Shown here: one piece after another, positions 17,987 through 50,390 of the stretch | How the letters are laid out: each line of letters begins with the position of its first letter | Numbering within the stretch: position 1 is the first letter of the stretch | Origin: Verrucomicrobiia bacterium | Lineage (GTDB): Bacteria > Verrucomicrobiota > Verrucomicrobiia > Limisphaerales > UBA8199 | Assembly (NCBI GenBank): GCA_035946615.1 | Contig: DASYZB010000065.1 | Coordinates: forward strand, 1-50,390 | DNA: 50,390 bases | Direction of reading: 5' to 3' | Translations under genes and position numbers: made by a program | Notes under the pieces: generated by a model | Databases searched by the model: none | Told to the model about the DNA's origin: nothing | Seen by the model: only the letters and a program-made list of their open reading frames with translations

Positions 17987-19540
17987 CTACTGCTGGAGGA
18001 GACGATAAAAGATCAGCGGATTAGTCCCGCCCGGAAGGAGGCTTTGGACCAGATTGGTTTGAGCATAAGTTAAAAGCGGGTTCCAATTGGCCAGCCCAAT
18101 GGAGTTGGTGCAAAACTGAAGTTGATAGCTGACTCCCGGGTTGCCAAACACGGTCAGGGTGCGCGGACTTGCGTTTGCCACTGCCTGGAGAATCGGTTGA
18201 CCAGCCACAACCACTACCTGGCCAGCCTGAGAGAAATAGTTGGCATAGCTTGCGCCGTTTGGCTTCAACGCATTGAGATTCCGAATCGGCAAGCTAATGA
18301 TGGCGGAACTCTGATTGGAGGCGCTCTGAAATCTCAATTGCGCGACAACATTCGAGCCGATTAAGGAGTTTCCCGAAACGGTTTGGAACGAGAGGACGAG
18401 ATTGGTTGGTTGGGTCTGGACCGAGCTTGAGGAGATTCCCGGCACAGCAATAAACAGGGACGGATTGAGGAAACGATTGGTATCCCAATCCATCGCAAAC
18501 ATCAGGTTGGTGGCGCCGTCGCTGCACGACAGCCAAAGAGGCGCCACACCGCTCTGCCCGGCTTTGAGCACAGTCGAGCCGGCGCCGACCGCCAGGTAAT
18601 CCAGCACAATAACCTGCACCGTTTCGTTCGTGCTTAACGAAACCGTGGTGGTATCGCTCAGGACGATTTGGATGAGGTTTGTTGTCGAGGCTTGAGCGCT
18701 GGTGGGGGTCCAAACCAGTCGCGAAACTCCCTTTTTGGTGGTAATTTTTGCGCCGGCGGGTGCTCCTGAACCAAGACTGTAGGAAAACTTGTCTCCGTTG
18801 GTAAAAGGCGGATTGATTGGGAATACGAAAGAGGTGTAGGGCGCTATGACAGCATTTGTAACGGGCGGGGGCGGCGCGGGAGGCGCGATGACAGTGACAT
18901 TGAACGAGCGGATGGTCGTATTGCTGACGGTTGCCCCGTCATCAACCATGACTGTCATGAGCACCGAGCCATAGGAGTTTGCAGCGGGGGTAAAGGAGAT
19001 TGTGCCGTTTGTGTTGGGGCTCGTGTAATTGACGGTGGGATTTGGAACCAGTCCGGGGTTGCTGGAGAAGGCGCTCACGGAAAGGGTTTGGACCTCATTG
19101 CTCGAGCCGGAAGTAATCCCGGTGAGGTTGACGATTTGCATTGGAGCATTCTCAGGAATGCTCATATCAGCAATTGGGTCCAGAGTTGGTGGCAGATTGG
19201 AAGCCCCATTAGGAACCGTGTAGGAGGCCTCAACCGAATAATCGCTTTCCAGCCCAGTGGCCGTGAAGGTCGTTGCCGCAAAATAATAAGTGGCCCCAGG
19301 GGCCAGGTTGGAGAGGGTAAGCGAGGTCGCCAAGCCCGCGGGCGTCAGATTCGTGTAAACACGCGAAGCAGTGCCTGAATAGACATTATACCCGACTACT
19401 GTTGCATCGGTTGTCGCATCCCAGGCCAGGGTCACATTGCTGGCGATGCAAAGAGAAGGTGCAAAGAATGCGAGGCCGGCAATAAAACACGTACGCTGGA
19501 CCGCCTTGCTCATCCGGCCCAAAACTCCTGCAAATCTCAT
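17987..19540 (-). CDS. Secreted Fn3/cadherin-like protein
   Basis: The protein has 517 residues from the ATG at 19540 with AGAGGG upstream, and a signal peptide to about residue 33. Domains: Fn3 (SNVTLAWDATTD to EASYTVP, about 34-118), a cadherin-like module (PPTLDPIADMSIPENAP to VTVIAP, about 122-215), a Pro-rich linker, a second Ig/cadherin-like unit (FVFPINPPFTNGDKFSYSLG), a cohesin-like module (GQSGVAPLWLSCSDGATNL, about 335-450), and a C-terminal module ending FYRLLQQ. It is probably surface-attached or exported. The N-terminal third is paralogous to the next gene upstream. Function unknown; binding or adhesion is a guess from domain type. Confidence 0.82.
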   Translation of the reverse strand: MRFAGVLGRMSKAVQRTCFIAGLAFFAPSLCIASNVTLAWDATTDATVVGYNVYSGTASRVYTNLTPAGLATSLTLSNLAPGATYYFAATTFTATGLESDYSVEASYTVPNGASNLPPTLDPIADMSIPENAPMQIVNLTGITSGSSNEVQTLSVSAFSSNPGLVPNPTVNYTSPNTNGTISFTPAANSYGSVLMTVMVDDGATVSNTTIRSFNVTVIAPPAPPPPVTNAVIAPYTSFVFPINPPFTNGDKFSYSLGSGAPAGAKITTKKGVSRLVWTPTSAQASTTNLIQIVLSDTTTVSLSTNETVQVIVLDYLAVGAGSTVLKAGQSGVAPLWLSCSDGATNLMFAMDWDTNRFLNPSLFIAVPGISSSSVQTQPTNLVLSFQTVSGNSLIGSNVVAQLRFQSASNQSSAIISLPIRNLNALKPNGASYANYFSQAGQVVVVAGQPILQAVANASPRTLTVFGNPGVSYQLQFCTNSIGLANWNPLLTYAQTNLVQSLLPGGTNPLIFYRLLQQ

Positions 19541-19786
19541 AGTGCCCTCTTTGCAATGCATAACCATTGCCAACCCGACAGGAAGGCTCCGGCATGTTCA
19601 TTAGGTTAGCTACCAAACCGGTTGGATGTCCTTTTTACGCGAGGAAAACCGGCAAAAAAGCAGGGGAATTAAACTCATGAGAGAGTTCGATGAGCTTCCC
19701 TATTATTGTCAGAGATGATCATCCGAGGGCAAGTGGTGTCCCGTCCTGAAATGGTTTAGGACATATTGTCCCGAACGGAGACCCGG

Positions 19787-21520
19787 TCACCGAGGGCCGA
19801 CGATTCTCCAGGCAGTCCCCACGTTGCCCGGACTGAGCAGACCACTTCGGAGCCGATTGGTCCCCGTCATCTGCCAGTAACCCAGCAGCCCGCTATCCTG
19901 CTGCCATAGAATGGCAACTTGGCCATCGCCATTGAGGTCCACCGTTCCCCTCATTTTCCAACTGGGGTCCACCTTTGGGGGATTCAACCACGCTGTTTGA
20001 GTCCGGTTTGTGCCGTTCATAAACCAAACATTCAGCGAGCCGTCATTCTTTTCCCAGAGAATGTCCATTTGACCGTCGGCGTTTAAATCTGCTATGCCCG
20101 TCAAACGCCAACTCGGATCGACCTGCGACGGATTCAGGTAGGCCGTTTGAACGCAGTTTGTGCCGTTCATGAACCAAACCCCGACCCAGCCATTTGTATG
20201 CTCGAGCAGCAAATCCTTTTGTCCATCCCCGTTCAAATCCCCCGTTGCCATCACATTCCAGCCTGGCTGCAATTGAGGAGACAAATAGACCCCGCGCGTA
20301 TTGGTCGGACCATTCATGAACCAGGCCGCCAACTGGCCACTGGTATTTTGCAGAATGATGTCTTCGTTGCCGGTGCCGCCGAAATGGCCACTGCCAACGA
20401 TCTTCCATTGGGTACCGATATTTGCGGGTTGCAGCAGGCTGGCGCTGAGGCGTGTGCTGCTTTTCATTGTCCATTGCCCTAATGTCCCGCTGCTCTGTTG
20501 CCACCACAACGTCCAGGTCGCCGGAGCACTATTTGTAGAGGTTTGGTTGACGGTGACGCCAAACGAGGTGGTGGCTGTGTTGTTGGCCGGTTGGCCGTCA
20601 TTGACAGTGACGGTAATGGTGGCTGACCCAAAAGCGTTGGCGGCGGGAGTGAAGGTCAGCGTGCCTGTCGGGTTAGGACTGGTAAAATTGACGGCAGGGG
20701 CGGGTATGAGGCCGGGGTTACTGGAAACCGCCGTCACAACAAGCGACTGATTTGAATTGGTGTCACCTGAAGAGATGCCAGAGAGGTTGACTATTTGAAG
20801 GCTGGCATTTTCATTGAGAACGAGGTTCGCCAACGGATCGATGGTGGGTGGATTATTGATCGAGTTAATGGTCACCGTGAACGTGCGGATAACTGTGTTA
20901 CTAACTGACCCGCCGTTATCGACCATGACCGTGATCACGACCGAGCCATAGGAGTTGGAGGCTGGGGTGAAGGTGAGCGTGCCGGTCGTGTTAGGACTGG
21001 TGTAATTGACGGCGGGATTTGGGACCAGACCCGGATTGCTCGAGAAGGCGCTCACGGTGAGGGTTTGGGTCTGATTGGTCGAGCCAGAGGTAATGCCCGT
21101 CAGGTTGATTATTTGTGACGGGCCGTTCTCGTTGAGGGAGACGTTATTGAGCGGGTCCAAGGTCGGCGGCTGGTTGGTTGCTCCGCCCGGCACGGTGTAA
21201 GAGGCCTCGACGGAATAATCGCTTTCCAAGCCGGTGGCGGTGAATGTCGTCGCCGCAAAATAATAAGTTGCGCCAGGGGCGAGATTGGAAAGAGTCAAAG
21301 AAGTGGCCAACCCAGCGGGAGTAACATTGGTGTACGCTCTTGATGTAACACCGGAATAGACGTTGTAGCCTACGACGGTCGGGTCGGTTGTGGGGTCCCA
21401 CGCCAGTGACACACTGTTTCCGTATGCAGTCGATGCCGCCAAAGCCGCCCCCGCCAGCACCAGGGTGAAAACAAGATAAACCCTGGCTCTGGCTGAGCCC
21501 AAAACTGCCGAAAATCGCAT
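19787..21520 (-). CDS. Secreted Fn3/cadherin/VCBS-repeat protein
   Basis: The protein has 577 residues from the ATG at 21520; the frame is open further upstream but that stretch has no signal peptide and does not align with the paralogue. It has a signal peptide (ARVYLVFTLVLAGAALAA), an Fn3 domain (about 33-118) identical over 45 residues to the neighbouring paralogue, two cadherin-like modules (about 120-310), and a C-terminal set of VCBS/FG-GAP-like repeats with GDLNGDGQKDLLLEHTNGWV, ADLNADGQMDILWEKNDGSL and DLNGDGQVAILWQQDSGLL (about 325-577). The repeats carry DxNxDGxxD calcium-binding loops. Likely extracellular. No Shine-Dalgarno is visible at the start. Confidence 0.8.
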   Translation of the reverse strand: MRFSAVLGSARARVYLVFTLVLAGAALAASTAYGNSVSLAWDPTTDPTVVGYNVYSGVTSRAYTNVTPAGLATSLTLSNLAPGATYYFAATTFTATGLESDYSVEASYTVPGGATNQPPTLDPLNNVSLNENGPSQIINLTGITSGSTNQTQTLTVSAFSSNPGLVPNPAVNYTSPNTTGTLTFTPASNSYGSVVITVMVDNGGSVSNTVIRTFTVTINSINNPPTIDPLANLVLNENASLQIVNLSGISSGDTNSNQSLVVTAVSSNPGLIPAPAVNFTSPNPTGTLTFTPAANAFGSATITVTVNDGQPANNTATTSFGVTVNQTSTNSAPATWTLWWQQSSGTLGQWTMKSSTRLSASLLQPANIGTQWKIVGSGHFGGTGNEDIILQNTSGQLAAWFMNGPTNTRGVYLSPQLQPGWNVMATGDLNGDGQKDLLLEHTNGWVGVWFMNGTNCVQTAYLNPSQVDPSWRLTGIADLNADGQMDILWEKNDGSLNVWFMNGTNRTQTAWLNPPKVDPSWKMRGTVDLNGDGQVAILWQQDSGLLGYWQMTGTNRLRSGLLSPGNVGTAWRIVGPR

Positions 21521-42447: not shown

Positions 42448-42605
42448 AAAAATAGCCATTTCGGTTTAGCAATCCATTTCAGCTTAGTCCACCCCATCGA
42501 GCAGGCTCGCTTATTAGAAAGGAGTGTAGTTTCCCATTCCTCGACTGTCAATTACAACACGGCAGCTTGCCGGCGAGAGCCGAATTGGTCAGCATCCCAG
42601 TCCTG

Positions 42606-44528
42606 ATGTCCCGGAACGGCAATACTCGCTGGGCAATCGTCTGTTGCGCAATACTGGCGGGCCTGGTGCTAGCCGCATTTGGGCCGGTCGCAGGCAACGG
42701 GTTTATTAATTACGACGACCCGGACTACGTCGTGCGCAATGAGCGGGTGCTGTCGGGACTAACGTGGGACAACACGGTTTGGGCCTTTCAAACCTTTCAT
42801 GCCGGCAATTGGCATCCCATCACGTGGCTCTCGCATATGGTGGATTGCCAGTTCTTTGGCCTGAACGCCCGCGCTCACCACCTGACCAGCCTCCTTTTTC
42901 ACCTGGCCAACAGCCTGATTTTGTTCTTCCTCATGCTGCGTCTGACGGCCACCCTCTGGCGCAGCGCGTTTGTGGCCGCGTTGTTTGCTCTGCATCCATT
43001 GCACGTCGAATCGGTCGCCTGGATTTCCGAGCGCAAGGACGTGTTGAGCGCATTCTTCGGGCTCCTCTCCATCTGGTTTTATGCCAGTTACGCGAGACGC
43101 ACCTCCGACGCTCCACGCTCCACGCTGCATGCTTTACTGCCCTTTCTCCTCTCTCTCGTCCTGTTCGCCCTCGGCCTGATGAGCAAAGCGATGCTCGTGA
43201 CGTTGCCATTCTTGCTCCTTCTGCTGGACTTCTGGCCTCTTCAACGAACCCGGTTGCCAATTGTGCACGAAGAATTATCACTCGCGAACGAGGTCTCATC
43301 CAAGAGTTCCTGCCCGGTCGCCTTTAGCCGGCTGGTTCTTGAAAAACTTCCATTCCTCACGCTGGCCGCAATCTCTGGCGTAATCACCTTTTGCGCGCAG
43401 AAGCGCCAAGGCGCTGTGGTGCCGGTCACGCTTCTCTCGCTGGGTTCGCGCTTCGAGCACGCATTGGTTTCTTACGGTATTTACCTGATGAAGACATTTT
43501 GGCCGGTTCGCCTGGCTGTCTATTATCCATTGCCTGACCAGGAGCCACTAGGCGCGGTAGCTTTGGCAGGCGCGGGGCTGACGCTAATCTCGCTGAGTGC
43601 GGTGCTTTTGTGGCGCACCCGGCCATACCTGGCGGTTGGATGGCTCTGGTTCGTGGGCATGCTGGCGCCTGTGAGCGGGCTGGTCCAAACGGGCCTGCAG
43701 GCCCAAGCGGACCGATACAGTTATCTCCCATCGATTGGCTTGTTCATTGTGGTGGCCTGGGGCTTGGCCGACATTGCACGGGCTTCTCGAATTCGCCAAA
43801 TCAGCTTTGCCTCGGGTTCTGCGGCAATCCTCGTCCTTTGCGGGATTCTGACCAATGCCCAAACGCGCTTGTGGAAGGACAGCGAAACCCTTTTCCGCCA
43901 CACGATTGATATTACCCCTGAGAATCCCGTCGCCAGGGTGAATCTCGGTTCTGCGCTCATCGAGGAGGGCAAATTTGCAGAGGCAAAGCAGCAATTCGCG
44001 GAAGCCGTCAGGCTCAAGCCCGGATATGCCGAGGCGCAAAGCAACCTCGGGTTTGCCCTGGCCATGCAGGGCAAAAGCGGAGATGCGGTTGCCCAGTATA
44101 GGCTCGCATTAGGCATTAACGCCCGCCTGGTGCGCACTCGTTCTTTGCTCGGCAGCGCGCTTCTGGCCCAAGGAAAACGCGCCGAAGCCGTCGCCGAGTA
44201 CAGAACCGCTCTGAGAGAGGACCCCGACTGGCCGGCCGCCTTGAATGATCTTGCCTGGGTTCTTGCCACCAGTCCTGAAAAATCCCCCGACAACGGCGCG
44301 GAGGCCGTGCGCCTTGCGGAGAAGGCCTGCACCCTCACTAAGTTCCATGAACCGCTGTTCATCGGCACTTTGGCTGCCGCCTACGCGCGGGCCAACCGCT
44401 TCAAGGAAGCAATCATGACGGCTGAAAGAGCAAAGACCCTCGCGGCCAAACTCGGAGAGAAAGCGATTGTCGAGCGCAATGAACACCTGCTGGAACTTTA
44501 CCATGCCGGAAAGCCTTACACGGAGTAG
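42606..44528 (+). CDS. Multi-pass membrane protein with C-terminal TPR (GT-C/TMTC-like)
   Basis: The protein has 640 residues from the ATG at 42606. About ten transmembrane spans (10-405) include NGFINYDDPDYVVRN with an acidic pair near 35-40, HPLHVESVAWISERKDVLSA near 138-157, and LGLMSKAMLVTLPFLLLLLD. This is the pattern of GT-C glycosyltransferase relatives (protein O-mannosyltransferase/TMTC-like) common in Verrucomicrobiota and Planctomycetes. The C-terminal 210 residues have three or four TPRs (ALIEEGKFAEAKQQFAEAVR, LGFALAMQGKSGDAVAQY), ending YHAGKPYTE. It probably glycosylates proteins or lipids. A close paralogue lies at 47847-49649 in the opposite orientation. Confidence 0.85.
   Translation: MSRNGNTRWAIVCCAILAGLVLAAFGPVAGNGFINYDDPDYVVRNERVLSGLTWDNTVWAFQTFHAGNWHPITWLSHMVDCQFFGLNARAHHLTSLLFHLANSLILFFLMLRLTATLWRSAFVAALFALHPLHVESVAWISERKDVLSAFFGLLSIWFYASYARRTSDAPRSTLHALLPFLLSLVLFALGLMSKAMLVTLPFLLLLLDFWPLQRTRLPIVHEELSLANEVSSKSSCPVAFSRLVLEKLPFLTLAAISGVITFCAQKRQGAVVPVTLLSLGSRFEHALVSYGIYLMKTFWPVRLAVYYPLPDQEPLGAVALAGAGLTLISLSAVLLWRTRPYLAVGWLWFVGMLAPVSGLVQTGLQAQADRYSYLPSIGLFIVVAWGLADIARASRIRQISFASGSAAILVLCGILTNAQTRLWKDSETLFRHTIDITPENPVARVNLGSALIEEGKFAEAKQQFAEAVRLKPGYAEAQSNLGFALAMQGKSGDAVAQYRLALGINARLVRTRSLLGSALLAQGKRAEAVAEYRTALREDPDWPAALNDLAWVLATSPEKSPDNGAEAVRLAEKACTLTKFHEPLFIGTLAAAYARANRFKEAIMTAERAKTLAAKLGEKAIVERNEHLLELYHAGKPYTE
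43108..43128. repeat. Heptanucleotide tandem repeat inside the membrane-TPR gene
   Basis: ACGCTCC ACGCTCC ACGCTGC: two perfect 7-nt units and one degenerate unit, in the coding strand. A change of one unit would shift the reading frame. The paralogue has a similar tract in the homologous loop (49094-49117). Confidence 0.75.
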
Positions 44529-44540
44529 AACTGGCAGCGC

Positions 44541-44586
44541 TCCTCGCCAAGCGTCTTGGACTGCGCCAGTCCTCTGATACTTTTGG
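44541..44586. repeat. Family C repeat, single copy
   Basis: It shares GCGTC-TGGA-TGCG-CCAGTCCTCTG and the end TTTTGG with 26291-26336. The 3' end TTTTGG is also the first six bases of the family A element that starts at 44581, so the two are nested or fused. Confidence 0.6.
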
Positions 44587-44699
44587 AGTGGGGTGGCAAG
44601 CGCAGCGCGACACCGCTTTTGGTCTGCAACTTTCACGCAACTGAGTCTGCTGCCTTCTCAAAGCGCCGTCGCCGCTGCGCTCTGCCGGCGCACTCCAAA
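44581..44699. repeat. Family A palindromic element, copy 1
   Basis: TTTTGGAGTG at the left end and CACTCCAAAG at the right end bracket two inverted arms (44581-44622 and 44659-44699) with the GACACCGCTTTTGG and CAAAGCGCCGTCGCC motifs. This copy is in the opposite orientation to the other three. It occupies most of the gap between the membrane-TPR gene and the protease gene and ends 40 nt before the protease start. Confidence 0.8.
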
Positions 44700-44739
44700 G
44701 AGATTGTTGCGGGAATTATTCCCCACTATACTGGCTTTG

Positions 44740-45720
44740 GTGAAGAACTTTGCTTTGTTTGCCCTTGCCACCTTACTGATGGCTCAGATCCCGGTTTCCG
44801 CGCAGGAGATTTCGTCCAACCCTCAGCCTGTTTCGACAAGGTTTGCCGGCTGGGCCACTAATGCGCCTGCGGTTTACAAGTTATTCAGCCAAGCCGTTAC
44901 AAACCCGGCACACCAACTCCGGTTCACGACGAATCCGGTTTTCGATCACTTCATTCCAGGGACACTCAGTTGCGAGACTTGGACGAATTTCATGGCCCAC
45001 ACCAACGGCGCGAGCATCGGTTTGTGGTCCGTCCGCTTGCGCCCGGCGGGCTGGCCGGCCATGCCGCCCGTCGTGAGGTGGAACACCCATTGCATCGCCT
45101 GGGGCATGGCGGGTTTGACGGCTATCAGTCCTTGTTGGGAGGGCGAGGGAGGCCCAGGGCAAGTGCCTATCACCGCATTGACAAAACGGCATGGGTACAC
45201 CCGAGGCCATGGGATGGGCCCTGAAGGGTTCAGGAAGGTTTATGCCGGGAAGAAGGTCTGGTTTCTCGAAGCGGACGACACCCTCATCGAGCGCAGGATA
45301 GTTGAGAGTGTGACCCGCATCACTCAGGGCCGCGATTACACCATCATGCTCTTTAACAAAGACCTGCCCGACTCGATTGCCCCTATGCGCGTCGTTTCGA
45401 CTGACATGGCCTGTATCAAGTGCCCCTACCGCCCCAATGCTCCTTGGTTGATTTTTCGCACCGAACAGGGCGGCTGCATCAGCACTACCATCCCCGGCTT
45501 CTCGACCATCACCTGGAAGGGGGGCGACTCTGGCTCACCCGACATGCTACCGCTGCCTGGAGAGCTGGTTTTTTTCCGGGGTCGAACCACAACGGGCCCA
45601 AGCCCCGAGATGCAAAAGGACATGGACGCGCTCTGCAAATCCGCCAGGCTTAACCCATCGAGATACCAACTCGATTGGGCCGATTTGTCCATGTACCCGT
45701 CTTTCGCTTCTGGGTTCTGA
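44740..45720 (+). CDS. Secreted trypsin-like serine protease
   Basis: The protein has 326 residues from the GTG at 44740; an open frame continues upstream through the repeat but has no plausible signal. A signal peptide (NFALFALATLLMAQIPVSAQ) precedes a chymotrypsin-fold-like domain: candidate catalytic His in ALTKRHGYTRGHGM near 155-170, candidate Asp in GRDYTIMLFNKDLPDSI near 205, and the classic Ser motif KGGDSGSPDMLPLPGELVFF near 262. Two cysteine pairs (NTHCIAWG, SPCWEG, ACIKCPY) may form disulfides. Substrates unknown. Exported or periplasmic. The GDSGSP motif is the main support. Confidence 0.72.
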   Translation: MKNFALFALATLLMAQIPVSAQEISSNPQPVSTRFAGWATNAPAVYKLFSQAVTNPAHQLRFTTNPVFDHFIPGTLSCETWTNFMAHTNGASIGLWSVRLRPAGWPAMPPVVRWNTHCIAWGMAGLTAISPCWEGEGGPGQVPITALTKRHGYTRGHGMGPEGFRKVYAGKKVWFLEADDTLIERRIVESVTRITQGRDYTIMLFNKDLPDSIAPMRVVSTDMACIKCPYRPNAPWLIFRTEQGGCISTTIPGFSTITWKGGDSGSPDMLPLPGELVFFRGRTTTGPSPEMQKDMDALCKSARLNPSRYQLDWADLSMYPSFASGF

Positions 45721-45751
45721 GGCCACGCGCGCTTGGGCTTCGTCCCCAGCC

Positions 45752-45793
45752 CTTACTCTCACTCTTACTCTTACTCCTGCACTTGCTCCCACT
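45752..45793. repeat. Degenerate hexanucleotide repeat
   Basis: Seven consecutive 6-nt units read CTTACT, CTCACT, CTTACT, CTTACT, CCTGCA, CTTGCT, CCCACT. It lies just after the protease stop. The rest of the 250-nt gap up to 45972 has no gene. Confidence 0.55.
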
Positions 45794-45960
45794 CGGCCTC
45801 CGAGGGGGACGTTCCCGGCGCCCGGAGGACGATTCTGAAAGGCCATCGTAAAAGTAAGATAGCCAGACCCTCTGGTTTCCACCGTTCTTTGTGCTCTTTG
45901 TATTCTTTTGCGGCTTTCAGAAAACTTCCATTTTGATGTGGTGTTTTATTTTGACAAAAG

Positions 45961-45966
45961 TATAAT
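45961..45966 (+). promoter_or_regulatory. Possible -10 element giving a leaderless transcript
   Basis: A perfect TATAAT lies with exactly 6 nt (AAAAGC) between it and the ATG at 45973. A start site at the usual distance would fall on the ATG, so the transcript could be leaderless. There is no Shine-Dalgarno. A clear -35 at 17 nt is not visible; TTGACA at 45951 is too close. Confidence 0.4.
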
Positions 45967-45972
45967 AAAAGC

Positions 45973-46896
45973 ATGAAGAATGGTGGAAAGGTGTGGGTAT
46001 GCATGGTCGGCAGCCTTGCTCTTTGCACGGCGGCAAACGCCATTACTGACACTGCCCCTTACCAGGGGATTGTCGAGCGCAACGCGTTCGGGCTCAAGCC
46101 CCCGCCCCCGCCGCCTGACCCCGAGGCCACCAAACCGCCCCCGCCGAAAATCATTCTCACGGGCATTCTTGCCGGAAGCGTATTTGGCGGCAAACGCGCG
46201 CTCATGAAAACGCCCCCGGCGCCGGTCAAACCCGGCCAAAAACCCGGTACGGAGGAGTATTACATCCTCAATATCGGCCAACGCCAGGGAGACATCGAGG
46301 TTCTGGATATTGATGATAAAGCCGGCAGCGTTAAGGTGAACAATGGCGGAACGGTTGAAACGCTGACGCTGGATAAAGACGGCCAAAAGTTGCCCACTAC
46401 AACACCGCCAGCCGGGATTCCCACGCCAACCGGTATCGTGCCCCCGCCGATGTCCATTCCAGGCCGCGGCTTTAACCCGAGCGGCGGCGCCCCCGGCTTC
46501 ACGATGCCCACGCGTGCTATGCGCTCCAATACCACCACGCCTGGAAGCCCTGGAATGAACCCGGGAATGGCTAATGGAATGGTTAATGGAATGGCCAATG
46601 GCGTGGCTCTTCCTGGTTTCGGTACGGCGCAAAGCGCGGCATCCGCGCAATTTCCTGAATCAAACTTGAGTCCGGAGGAGCAGGATGTCCTTATCGCAGC
46701 GCAGTATCAAAATGCCAAAATGAAAGGCGATCCCTCTGCAGCCTTATTCCCTCCAACCCGGCTTACACCTAACGTGAACACGGTCCCGATGCCCGGCGCT
46801 CCCGGCAGCGGAACTCCGAACCCGGGTGCGGGTCCGCAGGTGATGCCGCCTTCACCCTTCAACTTCGGCAGAGGGCTGCCCCCGGCCCCGCAATAA
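45973..46896 (+). CDS. Exported Pro/Gly-rich protein with GspC-like N-terminus
   Basis: The protein has 307 residues. Signal peptide (WVCMVGSLALCTAANA), then a domain of about 110 residues with GIVERNAFGLKPPPPPPDP, IILTGILAGSVFGGKRALM and YYILNIGQRQGDIEVLDID. This is the pattern of GspC/PilP homology-region domains of type II secretion or type IV pilus assembly (R-(N/P)-(P/A)-F, beta-strands of a Gly-containing lock). The remainder is Pro/Gly/Met-rich with a low-complexity GMNPGMANGMVNGMANG stretch near 195-211, and is probably unstructured. A secretion role is inferred from the N-terminal domain; no other secretion genes are present. Confidence 0.6.
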   Translation: MKNGGKVWVCMVGSLALCTAANAITDTAPYQGIVERNAFGLKPPPPPPDPEATKPPPPKIILTGILAGSVFGGKRALMKTPPAPVKPGQKPGTEEYYILNIGQRQGDIEVLDIDDKAGSVKVNNGGTVETLTLDKDGQKLPTTTPPAGIPTPTGIVPPPMSIPGRGFNPSGGAPGFTMPTRAMRSNTTTPGSPGMNPGMANGMVNGMANGVALPGFGTAQSAASAQFPESNLSPEEQDVLIAAQYQNAKMKGDPSAALFPPTRLTPNVNTVPMPGAPGSGTPNPGAGPQVMPPSPFNFGRGLPPAPQ

Positions 46897-46920
46897 GATT
46901 CCCTCGCGTAAGAGCTTTGT

Positions 46921-47029
46921 CTTTGGAGCGCAGCGGCGACGGCGCTTTGGAAAGGCGGCAGGATTCAATCCCCGTGAAAGTCACAGCCCCAAAGCGGTGT
47001 CGCGCTTCGCTTGCCACCGCACTCCAAAA
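46921..47029. repeat. Family A palindromic element, copy 2
   Basis: CTTTGGAG at 46921 and CCGCACTCCAAAA ending at 47029 bracket arms carrying CGACGGCGCTTTGG and CAAAGCGGTGTCGCG. The left arm has lost about 13 nt relative to copies 3 and 4. It ends 4 nt from the transposase stop codon. Confidence 0.8.
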
Positions 47030-47033
47030 CACG

Positions 47034-47603
47034 TCACCATTCGTTCACGACATCGTACTCGTCAGGGATTTGCAGCCGGTCTGTCTTAAAACGATAGATT
47101 GTCCTTACCTGGGCTGGAGTGGCTGTACGCTCGAACCATCTGGCCGAACACCACGGATACAGGCTTGCGAGGGGCGCCAATCCGTGCTTTACGGGATTCC
47201 TATGGACATAGTTCAGCCGCGCCAAATACGATTTCTCGTAAGTCAGTCGTGTTTCCCGAAAATTGTGCCAAACCTTCCGACCCGGCGTGCCATCCAGACG
47301 ATTAAGCCACTTCGCGGTTTTCTCGTGCAGTTTACCGAGCATCCGCCGAAGGTTGGCTGCATCAGGTTCTTTTGGCGGTGAATGCGCGACGAAATGATAA
47401 TGGTTCGAGAACACCGCCCAAGCCTCCAGGCGCCATTTAAATTCTGACGCTACAACAAGCAGACCACGATGCAGCACGCGCAGCCGCTCGGCGCCACGGA
47501 AGTGATGAGATTTCAAATAGGTTCCTGCGGTAACAAAATAAGTCCCGCCTTGAGAAAGCTGGTGAGTGGGTGCGCGCGGCCAGGGTATTTTCGGCTCCTG
47601 CAT
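47034..47603 (-). CDS. REP-associated tyrosine transposase (RAYT, Y1/HUH)
   Basis: About 189 residues from the ATG at 47603. ATGs at 47621 and 47642 are possible; the open frame beyond runs through repeat DNA. It has the IS200/RAYT pattern: PIPWPRAPTHQL-like start, YFVTAGTYLKSHHFR near 20-35, the HUH-type pair in FSNHYHFVAHSP near 75, a helix ending YLARLNYVHRNPVKHGLA near 140 that carries the nucleophilic Tyr, and YPWCSARWFER near 160. RAYTs nick single-stranded palindromic ends and are linked to dispersal of REP elements. It is bracketed by two family A palindromes, the likely substrates. Length is typical and no frameshift is visible, so it could be active. Confidence 0.88.
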   Translation of the reverse strand: MQEPKIPWPRAPTHQLSQGGTYFVTAGTYLKSHHFRGAERLRVLHRGLLVVASEFKWRLEAWAVFSNHYHFVAHSPPKEPDAANLRRMLGKLHEKTAKWLNRLDGTPGRKVWHNFRETRLTYEKSYLARLNYVHRNPVKHGLAPLASLYPWCSARWFERTATPAQVRTIYRFKTDRLQIPDEYDVVNEW

Positions 47604-47646
47604 TCGCCAAAAGATGGGCATTCGGCGCAAATTCACCAGCATTTTT

Positions 47647-47683
47647 TGAGTGAGCGCCGGCAGAGCGCAGCGGCCGCTTTTGC
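47647..47683. repeat. Partial family A arm
   Basis: GAGTGAGCGCCGGCAGAGCG and the following CAGCGGCCGCTTTTGC match the left arm of the adjacent full copy 3, as a truncated tandem duplicate. It lies between the RAYT start region and copy 3. Confidence 0.6.
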
Positions 47684-47824
47684 CTTTGGAGTGCGCCGGC
47701 AGAGCGCAGCGACGACGGCGCTTTGGGAAGGCGGACAGTCCCAAGGCCAAATCGCAGGGGTAAACCTCGTTGGGCGCTACCAGGCAAAGCGGTGTCGCGC
47801 TTCGCTTGCCACCGAACTCCAAAA
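47684..47824. repeat. Family A palindromic element, copy 3
   Basis: CTTTGGAGTGCG at the left and CGAACTCCAAAA at the right, with inner arms CGACGGCGCTTTGG and CAAAGCGGTGTCGCGC. It is 141 nt long and lies directly upstream of the RAYT gene, 23 nt from the stop of the membrane-TPR paralogue. The loop (GGCGGACAG to CTACCAGG) resembles that of copy 4, so the whole element, not only the arms, is conserved. Confidence 0.8.
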
Positions 47825-47846
47825 CAGGTCACCAGCAATCCTATGG

Positions 47847-49649
47847 TCACTGGGTCCGGTACGGCTTTCCTGCGCGGTAGAGTTCAAGAAGGTCCTTGTT
47901 CTTCTGCGCCAATTCGGATTCATGCCAAAGCTGGGCGTGGTCGCAGGCCATTTGGGCAGTGGCAACCGCCGCATCGAACTGCCCCGCTTCGGCGTACGCT
48001 GCAGCCAATGTCCCGATAAAAACCGTTCTTTGGTAATCGGTTAGCTGGCAAGCGCGTTGGGCCAATCGAACGGCTTCAGTCCCGTTCTGCAGCTTGGGAT
48101 CAGGGGAGGTTGCGCGCAACCACGCCAGGTTGTTGAGGGCCTCGGGAACATTCGGGTCGCTTTGAAGCGCCAATTCATAGTGGTGGATCGCCTCTGCGCA
48201 TCTACCTTCGTCAGCGAGGACAGAAGCCAACTGGCCCTGGGCCTTCGCAAAACCCGGATCGATCTGGAGAGCTCTTTGTAATTCATAAGATGCTTCATTG
48301 AGTTTTCCCTGTTCGGCAAGGGCTTTGCCGAGGCTGAAGCGAGCAACGGAATTGTCAGGCGTGACCGACAGGGCATGCTGAAACAAGGTCAGTGTGTCCT
48401 TCCAGTAGCGAGTCTGCACATTACTCGCCATGGCACAGGCCGCCAGCAACATGAACCCCAGAGCAAAGGTGAGCTTCCTTGGAATGGCATGCTGGGAGGC
48501 CATTTCTGCAGTCAGCCAGGTGAGAGCGATGAACAAACCGACGAACGGCAAATAGCTGTATCGGTCTGCCATCGATTGGGCGCCGACTTGAACGATGCCG
48601 ATTACGGGTATTAGCATGCCCAAAAACCAAAACCAGCCGGTTGCCAAGAATGGAAAACGCCGTGTCCCAAACAGGACGGCAATGCTGATCGCCAGCAATA
48701 GTGCAGCCGCCGCAGCGACTTGCCACAAAGCCCAATTCGCCGGCTGCGGATAAAACACTGTCAGGTCTGCTGGCCAGAATAGCTTCCCAAGATAACGGCA
48801 ATATGAAACCAGGGCATTGGCCAGGCGCGCCGATAGCGGCAGCGCGTTGAGCGTAGCCACCGCGCCGCCGGCCTGTTGTACGCGTAACGTGACAAAGCTC
48901 GATATGGCGCTCAGCGCCAGAAATGGGAGTTTCTCGATCAGAATCCTTGGCGAAACGGACCGGAGCGAGGGCTGGAGGCGCTGCAAGGGCCAAAAATCCA
49001 GCAGCAGGAGAACGAAAGGCAGGGTTACCAGCATGGGCTTGCTCATCAAGCCAAGGGCGAACAAGGCCAGGGAAAGGAGGTAGGGCGGCAAAACGTCGAG
49101 CGTCGAGCGTCGAGCGTGGGGCGCCTTTGCGGCGTAGTTCGCGTAGGCCCAAATGGTTAGAAAGCCGAAAAACGCGCTAAGCAGGTCCTTTCGCTCAGAA
49201 ACCCAGGCGACCGTTTGGACGTGCATGGGATGAACCGCAAAAAGCCCCGCCACGAGCGCGCTGCGCCAGAGCGACCCGGTCAATCGCTTAAGCAAAAAAA
49301 ACAGAAGCAAGGTATTGGTGACGTGGAGGAGCAAGTTGACCGCGTGATGGGCACCGGGGCTGACGCCAAAGAGGGTCACATCCAGCATGTGCGAGGCCCA
49401 GGTTAAGGGGTGCCAATTGCCAGCCCAACCGGTGGTGAAGGCCCAAGCCAATCCCCGCCAGGTGAGCCCGGCCAGAACCTGGGGGGTTTGGGTGACGTAA
49501 TCAGGGTCATCATAGTTGATGAACCCGTTGCGGAGCACCGGCCAGAAGGCGGCCACGGCGAGAGCAATCAGCAACGCGCTGAGCAGGAGGATGCAGACAA
49601 AAACGTCCAAATGCCTTCGATCATTTGCGCGCAGGTCTTCCAACATCAT
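47847..49649 (-). CDS. Multi-pass membrane protein with C-terminal TPR, paralogue
   Basis: About 600 residues from the ATG at 49649; a second ATG follows directly. Same plan as the gene at 42606: NGFINYDDPDYVTQT near 40, HPLTWASHMLDVTLFG, HPMHVQTVAWVSERKDLLSA near 137-156, LGLMSKPMLVTLPFVLLLLD, then TPRs (LGKALAEQGKLNEASYELQR, EGRCAEAIHHYELAL) and the tail YRAGKPYRTQ. The two proteins align end to end. The predicted role is the same, a GT-C-type glycosyltransferase relative. The two genes form a widely spaced inverted pair around the RAYT region, which could allow recombination. Confidence 0.85.
   Translation of the reverse strand: MMLEDLRANDRRHLDVFVCILLLSALLIALAVAAFWPVLRNGFINYDDPDYVTQTPQVLAGLTWRGLAWAFTTGWAGNWHPLTWASHMLDVTLFGVSPGAHHAVNLLLHVTNTLLLFFLLKRLTGSLWRSALVAGLFAVHPMHVQTVAWVSERKDLLSAFFGFLTIWAYANYAAKAPHARRSTLDVLPPYLLSLALFALGLMSKPMLVTLPFVLLLLDFWPLQRLQPSLRSVSPRILIEKLPFLALSAISSFVTLRVQQAGGAVATLNALPLSARLANALVSYCRYLGKLFWPADLTVFYPQPANWALWQVAAAAALLLAISIAVLFGTRRFPFLATGWFWFLGMLIPVIGIVQVGAQSMADRYSYLPFVGLFIALTWLTAEMASQHAIPRKLTFALGFMLLAACAMASNVQTRYWKDTLTLFQHALSVTPDNSVARFSLGKALAEQGKLNEASYELQRALQIDPGFAKAQGQLASVLADEGRCAEAIHHYELALQSDPNVPEALNNLAWLRATSPDPKLQNGTEAVRLAQRACQLTDYQRTVFIGTLAAAYAEAGQFDAAVATAQMACDHAQLWHESELAQKNKDLLELYRAGKPYRTQ
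49094..49117. repeat. Heptanucleotide tandem repeat inside the paralogue
   Basis: Three perfect 7-nt units (CGTCGAG on the plus strand, ACGCTCG in the coding sense) plus a CGT start of a fourth. It corresponds in position and near-sequence to 43108-43128 of the other paralogue. Loss or gain of a unit would shift the frame. Confidence 0.8.
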
Positions 49650-49704
49650 GACTTTAGCAGGACGCAATGAGATGGCAAAGCACAAGAATACGTTTGTTTC
49701 TTTG

Positions 49705-49846
49705 TTTTGGAGTGCGCCGGCAGAGCGCAGCGGCGACGGCGCTTTGGGCTAGCCGGACAGGGCCAACTGCGAATTGCGAAGGTTAAACCTTGCGGAAACT
49801 CCCAGGCAAAGCGGTGTCGCGCTTCGCTTGCCACCGCACTCCAAAA
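49705..49846. repeat. Family A palindromic element, copy 4
   Basis: This is the best-preserved copy: TTTTGGAGTGCG at the left and CGCACTCCAAAA at the right are perfect 12-bp inverted repeats, and the whole element is 142 nt. Inner arms match copy 3. It lies in the gap between the membrane-TPR paralogue start and the terminator at 49859. Confidence 0.85.
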
Positions 49847-49858
49847 GGGCGCGTGTAC

Positions 49859-49890
49859 AAAAAAAGAAGCCGCCCGTTTCCGAGCGGCTT
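49859..49890 (-). terminator. Rho-independent terminator for the PEP-CTERM gene
   Basis: On the minus strand AAGCCGC (49884-49890) pairs with GCGGCTT (49867-49873) around a 10-nt loop, followed by C and a seven-T run (49859-49865). It is 25 nt after the stop codon at 49915. Confidence 0.9.
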
Positions 49891-49914
49891 GTGTGTGATT
49901 TAAAGAGCCTTCTC

Positions 49915-50390
49915 TTACTTGCGACGGCGGAAGATCAGCAGCGCAGCAGCGCCGAGACCAGCCAATGCGAAGGTGCCCGGTTCAGGCACCGCTGCGATAA
50001 CATACAGTGAGAAGGGTGAGGTGATTGGTGTGCCTGCCGCTGTCGGTACTGTTCCAAACAACGGGAATGGAGGTAGTCCCTGCGCTCCGCCACCAGCTTC
50101 ACCAAAGCCAACGCTTGAGAGACCAAAGAAGGCCGAGCCATTCTTGACAGTCCAATTTCCACCATTCCACTGACCACCACTGAAGGTCGAGCCGTTGAGC
50201 TCTGCGGCAATGGTGCTCCAATCATGGCCGAGGTTTGAGGACCAACCAACAACTGCAAATGAGTTGGTGACACCTGGTGCCCAACCAGTTGTCGTCGCGG
50301 CGGTACTGCCTCCGCTCAAGCGACCACCCGCTGGTATATTTGTAGCATAGCTGCCAGTAAATGTCCAAGTGCCCCCAAGTAAGGCAGCAC
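49915..50390 (-). CDS. PEP-CTERM sorting-domain protein, partial at the window edge
   Basis: The frame is open from the window end to TAA at 49915, giving 157 or more residues with the N-terminus missing. It is rich in Gly, Ser, Thr and Trp (for example WTFTGSYATNIPAGG, ELNGSTFSGGQWNGGNWTVK) and ends in a PEP-CTERM signal: VPEPGTFALAGLG, a hydrophobic stretch, then FRRRK. The PEP-CTERM/exosortase system anchors such proteins to the surface or biofilm matrix in many Gram-negatives. No exosortase gene is in this window. A terminator follows. Confidence 0.88.
   Translation of the reverse strand, partial: AALLGGTWTFTGSYATNIPAGGRLSGGSTAATTTGWAPGVTNSFAVVGWSSNLGHDWSTIAAELNGSTFSGGQWNGGNWTVKNGSAFFGLSSVGFGEAGGGAQGLPPFPLFGTVPTAAGTPITSPFSLYVIAAVPEPGTFALAGLGAAALLIFRRRK

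Follow-up and report, generated by a model that had tools for sequence, protein, structure and literature searches.

A RAYT branch found mainly in Verrucomicrobiota and its dispersed TGGASTGC-tagged hairpins

A stretch of 50,390 nucleotides of verrucomicrobial DNA (the window, by which the whole analysed stretch is meant) contains a gene for a Y1 transposase of the RAYT type with palindromic elements close by on both sides, which raises the question of whether the enzyme and the palindromes belong together and what kind of system they form. The original prediction had taken the palindrome to be unlike a plain REP hairpin and perhaps a MITE-like element moved by the enzyme.

The RAYT gene and the palindromes beside it

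The span 46921-47824 comprises two elements plus the gene, the coding part of which is considerably shorter (Table 1). As predicted, this open frame carries an HYH motif (residues 68-70) and the motif NYVHRNPVKHG, with Tyr132 and Asn136-P137. Its ATG lies about where homology to relatives, including a paralog in the same genome, begins; a TTG start at 47822 was rejected, since the homology to the paralog begins near the ATG and the TTG frame reads through the palindrome. H70, Y132 and N136 are invariant in 63 aligned RAYT rows and H68 and Y69 are conserved in at least 90%, and some relatives have NA where the window protein has NP in the Y---NP motif. The matches to NF047646 (73.5 bits, curated cut-off 80) and to Pfam Y1_Tnp (E 0.017, 15.7 bits, cut-off 23) fall below thresholds that are model cut-offs and not biological features. 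An AlphaFold model of the protein (pLDDT 90.2) finds its best solved match in E. coli TnpA-REP (4er8; Z 17.2 over 161 residues), followed by the IS608 transposase (Z 9.8), and the profile match to 4er8 has an E value of 2.3e-14. The HUH motif, Y---NP, the predicted TnpA-REP fold and the flanking dispersed hairpin repeats, all present here, are features of class 2 TnpAY1 proteins. A role as a defence-system protein was also considered and rejected, with 0 PADLOC families matching the RAYT. Around the RAYT region, two similar large membrane proteins (42567-44528 on the plus strand and 47847-49685 on the minus strand; 69% blastn identity over 566 nt) face each other, with C-termini that look TPR-like by eye.

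Table 1. Positions of the RAYT gene and the palindromic copies in the window
Feature	Position	Strand	Details
REPIN copy, opposite orientation	44580..44700	-	arm a 44660-44698 (-)
REPIN copy beside the RAYT stop codon (4 nt away)	46922..47029	+	short left arm; complete right arm b, 46991-47027 (-)
RAYT (TnpA-REP-like HUH/Y1 enzyme), 189 aa	47034..47603	-	most likely start ATG 47603; stop codon 47034-47036
Single decayed arm-a remnant, immediately upstream of the RAYT start	47641..47680 (limits approximate)	+	repeat family D3, inverted pair I7
REPIN copy upstream of the RAYT	47684..47825	+	arm a 47686-47724 (+), arm b about 47786-47824 (-), spacer between
REPIN copy	49705..49847	+	arms 49707-49745 (+) and 49808-49844 (-); exact 12-bp ends

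The two palindromes expected next to the gene, one of them 4 nt from it and the other adjoining it upstream in the same orientation, are both present. The perfect 12-bp ends ascribed to the element belong to the 49705 copy only, and the other three window copies have exact end repeats of 9, 7 and 8 bp. In the copy upstream of the RAYT, arm b carries one change in its tag; the shortened left arm of the 46922 copy appears as a gap in the alignment of the window copies. Folded as single-stranded DNA, the copies reach z-scores of -5.4 (44580), -4.0 (46922), -4.9 (47684) and -5.8 (49705), and 0 of 200 shuffles folded as well as the window copy in each of the four cases; single arms folded alone gave z-scores of -0.9 and -1.3 against shuffles, without significance. 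A REPIN can fold in two alternative ways, either with its halves paired end to end or with one small hairpin per arm. Judged by eye from the list of open reading frames, the copies sit between likely genes, and a GTG-start frame at 44593 would begin inside the first of them. A known RNA family was rejected as an explanation, since Rfam gave 3 chance-level matches in 44400-50000, none near the gathering score.

Other repeats occur in the window. A segment adjoining one of the REPINs (49841-50389) recurs with 79% identity at the beginning of another contig of this genome, C77. It includes a frame (49915-50319) whose C-terminal end resembles that of a PEP-CTERM protein. Further away, 18894-21416 contains repeats of about 260 nt with 63-76% identity (families D1 and D2), perhaps repeated protein domains.

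Tagged hairpins in the host genome and at related loci

A blastn search of the genome with the 142-nt copy returned 39 matches, mostly to one arm. In an alignment of these arms the layout is constant: TTGGASTGC leads into a stem-loop whose returning strand is followed by CTTT. The corresponding pattern TTGGASTGCN{8,38}CGCTTT has 61 matches in the 5.6-Mb genome as compared with 0 for the reversed pattern, so that the element is not confined to the surroundings of the gene. The matches fall into two classes by tag base: GGAG hairpins measure 37-39 nt in 18 of 19 matches with G, and GGAC hairpins 27-28 nt in 39 of 42 matches with C. The loop of the element, conserved according to the original prediction, is a spacer that varies in length and sequence among doublets, and the conserved parts are the two REP-like arms. 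The element is a REPIN because these conserved parts are two inverted hairpins, and an inverted doublet of tagged hairpins is a known companion of RAYTs, which removes the reason for calling it MITE-like.

When all 61 strict sites and the earlier loci were grouped by flanking context, 55 hairpin groups resulted (42 single, 10 pairs and 3 triplets). The 17 GGAG groups comprise 6 inverted pairs, all with their tags outward, and 11 single hairpins, and the 35 GGAC groups comprise 3 outward pairs, 1 reverse-order pair, 3 triplets and 28 single hairpins; 3 further single hairpins have A or T as tag base. A decayed second arm was found on the tail side of 8 of the 11 GGAG singles and of 5 of the 28 GGAC singles, as compared with 0 of 47 control windows, and a decayed head-side partner beside 1 GGAC single. 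If decayed arms are included, 14 of the 17 GGAG groups are doublets (6 full and 8 decayed), and 22 of the 35 GGAC groups have no partner that could be found. Hence, the GGAG class beside the window RAYT has the REPIN layout, and the GGAC class of the paralog consists mostly of single REPs.

Larger arrangements were seen elsewhere. In another genome (G276) the REPIN is part of a larger repeat (about 245 nt, L187:1654-1898) that recurs there at 81-91% identity, so that larger composite elements may exist, and in the RAYT flanks of loci L062 and L059 whole REPINs are repeated in tandem every 156 nt.

The association extends to related genes. A contig scan with the two RAYTs of this genome yielded 68 relatives and, with the window and the paralog, 70 loci; the relatives are mostly labelled Verrucomicrobiota and some Acidobacteria, Hydrogenedentes, Planctomycetota, Poribacteria or Stahlbacteria, labels that come from record titles, mostly of MAGs, in which binning errors are possible. 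A de novo comparison of 8-mers, in which no motif was assumed, covered 300-nt proximal flanks at 68 loci (39.8 kb proximal and 32.6 kb distal sequence). Proximal flanks contained the 8-mer TGGAGTGC at 46 loci and TGGACTGC at 31, both with 0 distal loci, and CGCACTCC, GCCGCTTT and ACCGCTTT occurred proximally in 42, 33 and 32 loci, respectively, each with 2 distal ones. With the tag fixed, 63 of the 70 loci have a tagged hairpin within 400 nt of the RAYT, and tagged units number 224 in 53.9 kb of proximal sequence versus 30 in 239 kb of distal sequence. If no hairpin is required, 51 of the 70 loci have a tag both upstream and downstream of the gene within 500 nt.

A stem of at least 6 bp begins at 178 of 220 proximal tags and at 32 of 220 after shuffling of the downstream sequence, and 142 of those 178 stem-forming tags are followed by TTT after the hairpin, as compared with 0 of 220 after shuffling (the shuffles ignore phylogeny). 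In a logo of 191 units from 60 loci, for which the tag itself was imposed and the T-run pre-filtered, position -2 before TGGA, which was not imposed, is a pyrimidine in 190 units. The hairpin stems covary at RAYT loci: in the 24-nt class (49 distinct units from 28 loci, selected by length and ends alone), 5 inner stem pairs vary among G-C, C-G, T-A and A-T and are paired in 45-49 of the 49 units, and the two outer pairs never vary.

The strict tag is absent from 7 of the 70 loci. Three of these (L089, L090 and L093) have near-variant hairpins with CGGACTGC or TAGACTGC when inspected by eye, L102 is a fragment and L105 a distant relative. Weaker RAYT matches in the phylum (L140-L166) have no tagged hairpin close by, and in the 3 of 27 that have one it lies about 0.8-1.4 kb away; among the weaker matches L197-L200 one has a tagged hairpin, about 0.75 kb away, and none a nearer one. 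The clade loci L137-L139, L189-L196 and L201 have tagged hairpins within 400 nt, as do 27 of 33 further clade loci with a clear open reading frame (37 fetched).

Pairing and distribution of enzymes and hairpins

The genome of the window contains two RAYTs of the clade, which are 67% identical. The window RAYT has long GGAG hairpins on both sides, and the paralog on contig C113 is flanked by short GGAC hairpins. Across 57 loci, RAYT distance correlates with hairpin distance (Mantel r 0.43, p 0.0001), and for 30 of the 57 the locus with the closest enzyme also ranks among the five with the closest hairpin sets, as compared with about 5 expected by chance. Co-inheritance of the partners would be expected to give such a correlation with or without any action of the enzyme on the hairpins.

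A survey of 387 genomes of the phylum compared RAYT presence with matches to the pattern TTGGASTGCN{8,38}GCTTT. At least 10 tagged copies were found in 29 of 42 genomes with a clade RAYT (E 1e-45 or better) versus 25 of 345 others, at a cut that was picked after the list had been viewed and that counts 11 genomes with matches between 1e-45 and 1e-25 as lacking the RAYT; Fisher's test gives 4e-19, with relatedness ignored. The element is thus far commoner where the clade RAYT is present, but the 25 exceptions (including G221, G256 and G009) carry 11 to 135 copies although no clade RAYT passes the cut. A search of 24 of them at E 1e-5 found only weaker RAYT matches (best 2.6e-25), with none in 4 genomes. 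Conversely, 13 of the 42 genomes have fewer than 10 copies despite a clade RAYT. Candidate reasons for the exceptions are loss of the enzyme, MAG or assembly gaps at repeats, strictness of the pattern and another enzyme, and the hairpin-rich genomes without a clade RAYT are candidates for orphan populations or assembly gaps.

Empty sites were sought among relatives. The nearest of 40 relatives searched belongs to the same family as the window genome but to another genus, and therefore there is no base-exact empty site for the window REPINs. Two REPIN sites of G276 have counterparts in the sister G139 in which both flanks align and no tagged unit is present; at the second of these sites, G362 and G427 likewise have no tagged unit, with only one flank aligned. 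Flank identity between the sister species is 75-83% at the G276 sites, which precludes a base-exact junction.

Could the hairpins be host elements, such as terminators, RNA-stability sites or nucleoid sites, with the RAYT as an incidental neighbour? The window hairpins lie between likely genes and some directly follow stop codons (44580 and 46922), T-runs follow a G+C stem as in intrinsic terminators, GGAC hairpins are mostly single, and the copy-rich genomes without a clade RAYT at the cut used would fit as well. However, tags on both sides of the gene in most of the 70 loci are not expected of plain terminators, the hairpin class tracks the RAYT, with two paralog-specific classes in one genome, and the GGAG class forms inverted doublets, all of which makes this explanation improbable, though a secondary use of the hairpins as terminators is possible. 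Computation shows a low-copy HUH/Y1 enzyme that is flanked by and co-distributed with hairpins of the form 5' YNTGGASTGC-stem-loop-stem-GCTTT 3', and a hairpin class that follows the enzyme across species and differs between paralogs in one genome. The predicted tie between dispersed element and RAYT is hence well supported by proximity, by association throughout the family and by specificity within a genome.

Tag recognition and comparison with known systems

In this RAYT clade, computation shows TGGASTGC in place of GT[AG]G at the start of the hairpin. A canonical GTAG-type system with a merely displaced or degenerate tag would share the predicted fold and the doublet layout, and it gains some appeal from Opitutus terrae, a member of the same phylum described with GTAG/GTGG repeats (PMC3733652), and from the GT[AG]G REPs attributed to the nearest published subclass by motif, 2.8 (PMC6006769). 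Yet TGGA[CG]T hairpins are about 25-fold enriched near the 70 loci (2.01 per kb proximal vs 0.08 distal), and neither GTAG hairpins (0.26 vs 0.41 per kb) nor GTGG hairpins (0.95 vs 0.94) are; CGTC hairpins (1.21 vs 0.91) were counted as not enriched, and GGGGWSAS hairpins are scarce, with 4 proximal ones in 3 of the 70 loci and 3 distal ones. The guide region differs as well. For E. coli TnpA-REP, the discussion in PMC6006769 names W94, Q95, E100, H101 and R104 in connection with GTAG. H101 aligns to T118 (Thr in 63 of 74 rows) and R104 to T121 (68 of 74), and Q95 aligns at 113-114, where Gln occurs in 2 and 8 of the 74 rows, respectively. At W112 and E117 the residue type is conserved (73 W; 56 E and 18 D), and the residue after W is H in 44 and F in 18 of the 74 rows. 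If recognition has switched, guide region and tag would be expected to differ together, as they do here; a GTAG system in disguise is very unlikely. Least credible of all is a classical MITE moved by some DDE transposase from another part of the genome, the RAYT being a chance neighbour. This would account for a short element with terminal inverted repeats but not for end repeats that are imperfect in 3 of 4 window copies, nor for the same tag with unrelated stems beside RAYTs down to 34% identity (L100 and L104, the latter with a broken frame).

The locus is thus probably, and with good confidence, to be read as a RAYT-REPIN system with a non-canonical tag. Its enzyme would most likely nick tagged hairpins in single-stranded form and disperse them in trans. 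By analogy with the E. coli enzyme, for which in vitro work as reported in PMC8266576 is the source for the cutting, joining and spreading assumed here, the RAYT would bind a REP arm as single-stranded DNA, with the hairpin giving the shape and the GGASTGC tag serving as guide, and Tyr132 would nick near the hairpin foot. The two arms of one REPIN would presumably be processed together, so that the doublet would be copied or moved to new sites in trans, and the RAYT gene itself would stay put as REPINs spread. The long hairpin formed by end-to-end pairing of a REPIN has been proposed, according to PMC3116915, as a form poorly recognised by RAYTs.

How the tag base might be read was explored on a RAYT tree of 75 rows, from which 7 rows with stops or short length had been dropped beforehand. 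The survey used 53 labelled rows (34 G and 19 C), leaving out 10 mixed and 12 unlabelled ones. The tag base is clustered on the tree (9 changes versus 15.8 in shuffles) and switches often. In an exploratory comparison, Gly occupies position 27 in 29 of 34 G-tag rows and 3 of 19 C-tag rows, and Ser does so in 16 of 19 C-tag rows; at position 31, Arg is found in 12 of 19 C-tag rows and 1 of 34 G-tag rows. The tree offered too few independent pairs for this association between residue and tag to reach significance. A held-out set of 37 further loci contained 4 without a clear open reading frame, 2 redundant and 13 unlabelled or mixed loci, which left 18 to be scored (14 G and 4 C). The prediction of Ser27 and Arg31 failed there, with 0 of 4 C-tag rows for each. 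Gly27 was found in 13 of 14 G-tag and 1 of 4 C-tag rows (one-sided Fisher about 0.02, post hoc), Arg27 in 3 of the 4 C-tag rows, and Lys31 in 14 of 14 G-tag and 2 of 4 C-tag rows. Because half of the prediction failed in the held-out loci, residue 27 stays only a lead as a candidate tag-reading residue.

Among known systems, the window RAYT appears nearest to subclass 2.8 of TnpAY1 class 2, a placement based on motifs. According to PMC6006769, proteins of that subclass share HYH, W[YH], Y-H-NP, a proline-rich N-terminus, a length of about 190-200 aa, low copy number and flanking hairpin repeats that are present elsewhere in the genome, and have close relatives in other phyla; the subclass as described there differs in comprising 8 cyanobacterial proteins with GT[AG]G REPs, as opposed to TGGASTGC in the window system. 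The E. coli TnpA-REP (4er8) shares the predicted fold, the catalytic motifs and inverted REP pairs but differs in its GTAG tag and in the residues at guide contacts Q95, H101 and R104. A precedent for hairpins other than GT[AG]G is given by class 3 of Planctomycetes and Acidobacteria, in which PMC6006769 describes a CnGA 5' foot and up to about 600 copies, although this class has Y----Q and not Y---NP. The Bacteroidetes subclass 2.6 is likewise described with atypical structures and a similar Y motif, YIH[QN]NP, but differs in NH[LIV]H and WQ; the main text of PMC6006769 reports TGGASTGC with neither class 3 nor subclass 2.6. CGTC repeats were reported in 2013 without an enzyme.

REPINs as described in PMC3116915 share the two inverted REPs, the variable spacer, the two alternative folds and the occurrence of distinct groups beside distinct RAYTs in one genome; the differences are the tag and the modest copy number of 61 strict hairpins in the window genome, as compared with about six hundred REPs given for E. 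coli K12 in PMC8266576. The TIRYT/TIRtron arrangement (PMC3733652) resembles the locus in that a RAYT-like gene lies between long inverted repeats without GTAG, which are likewise dispersed in some genomes according to the same source, but its repeats are GGGGWSAS, and the 189-aa window protein has no long C-terminal extension.

Among the open-licence papers listed, no description of the TGGASTGC tag was recognised in the main-text passages covered, and six 11-12-base strings of the element had matches in 3 papers that are unrelated by title. RAYT groups are reportedly the subject of a study by Bertels et al. from 2017. In Nunvar 2010 (PMC2817692), there is no mention of verrucomicrobi, Opitutus, GGAG or Planctomyc. 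As far as the literature consulted goes, the original prediction was fair in calling such systems little described in the phylum, with Opitutus terrae (PMC3733652) as the one verrucomicrobial case there. What is known, then, is the RAYT-REPIN kind and the existence of precedents other than GT[AG]G, and what is new is the TGGASTGC tag with one RAYT branch mainly in Verrucomicrobiota.

A more far-reaching proposal, which as a whole is tentative and rather doubtful, would make GGASTGC a further REP tag superfamily beside GTAG, CGTC and CnGA, with a dedicated class 2 clade that is centred on Verrucomicrobiota and reaches genomes labelled Acidobacteria, Poribacteria and Stahlbacteria; the tag base would be read near residue 27, with Gly27 going with GGAG and Ser27 or Arg27 with GGAC, and paralogs would keep separate hairpin populations. 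If true, a one-base, one-residue code would separate the hairpin populations of paralogs within one genome.

Taken together, the RAYT-REPIN reading explains a class of palindromes in Verrucomicrobiota genomes through which reading frames can run to give spurious peptide ends, the TTG-started frame being an example. In the literature consulted, GT[AG]G is the only tag whose recognition by class 2 RAYTs has been worked out, others being noted (class 3) or called atypical (subclass 2.6), and the combination of another tag, other residues at the guide contacts and two enzyme-hairpin pairs in one genome is a natural experiment on how RAYTs choose their REPs.
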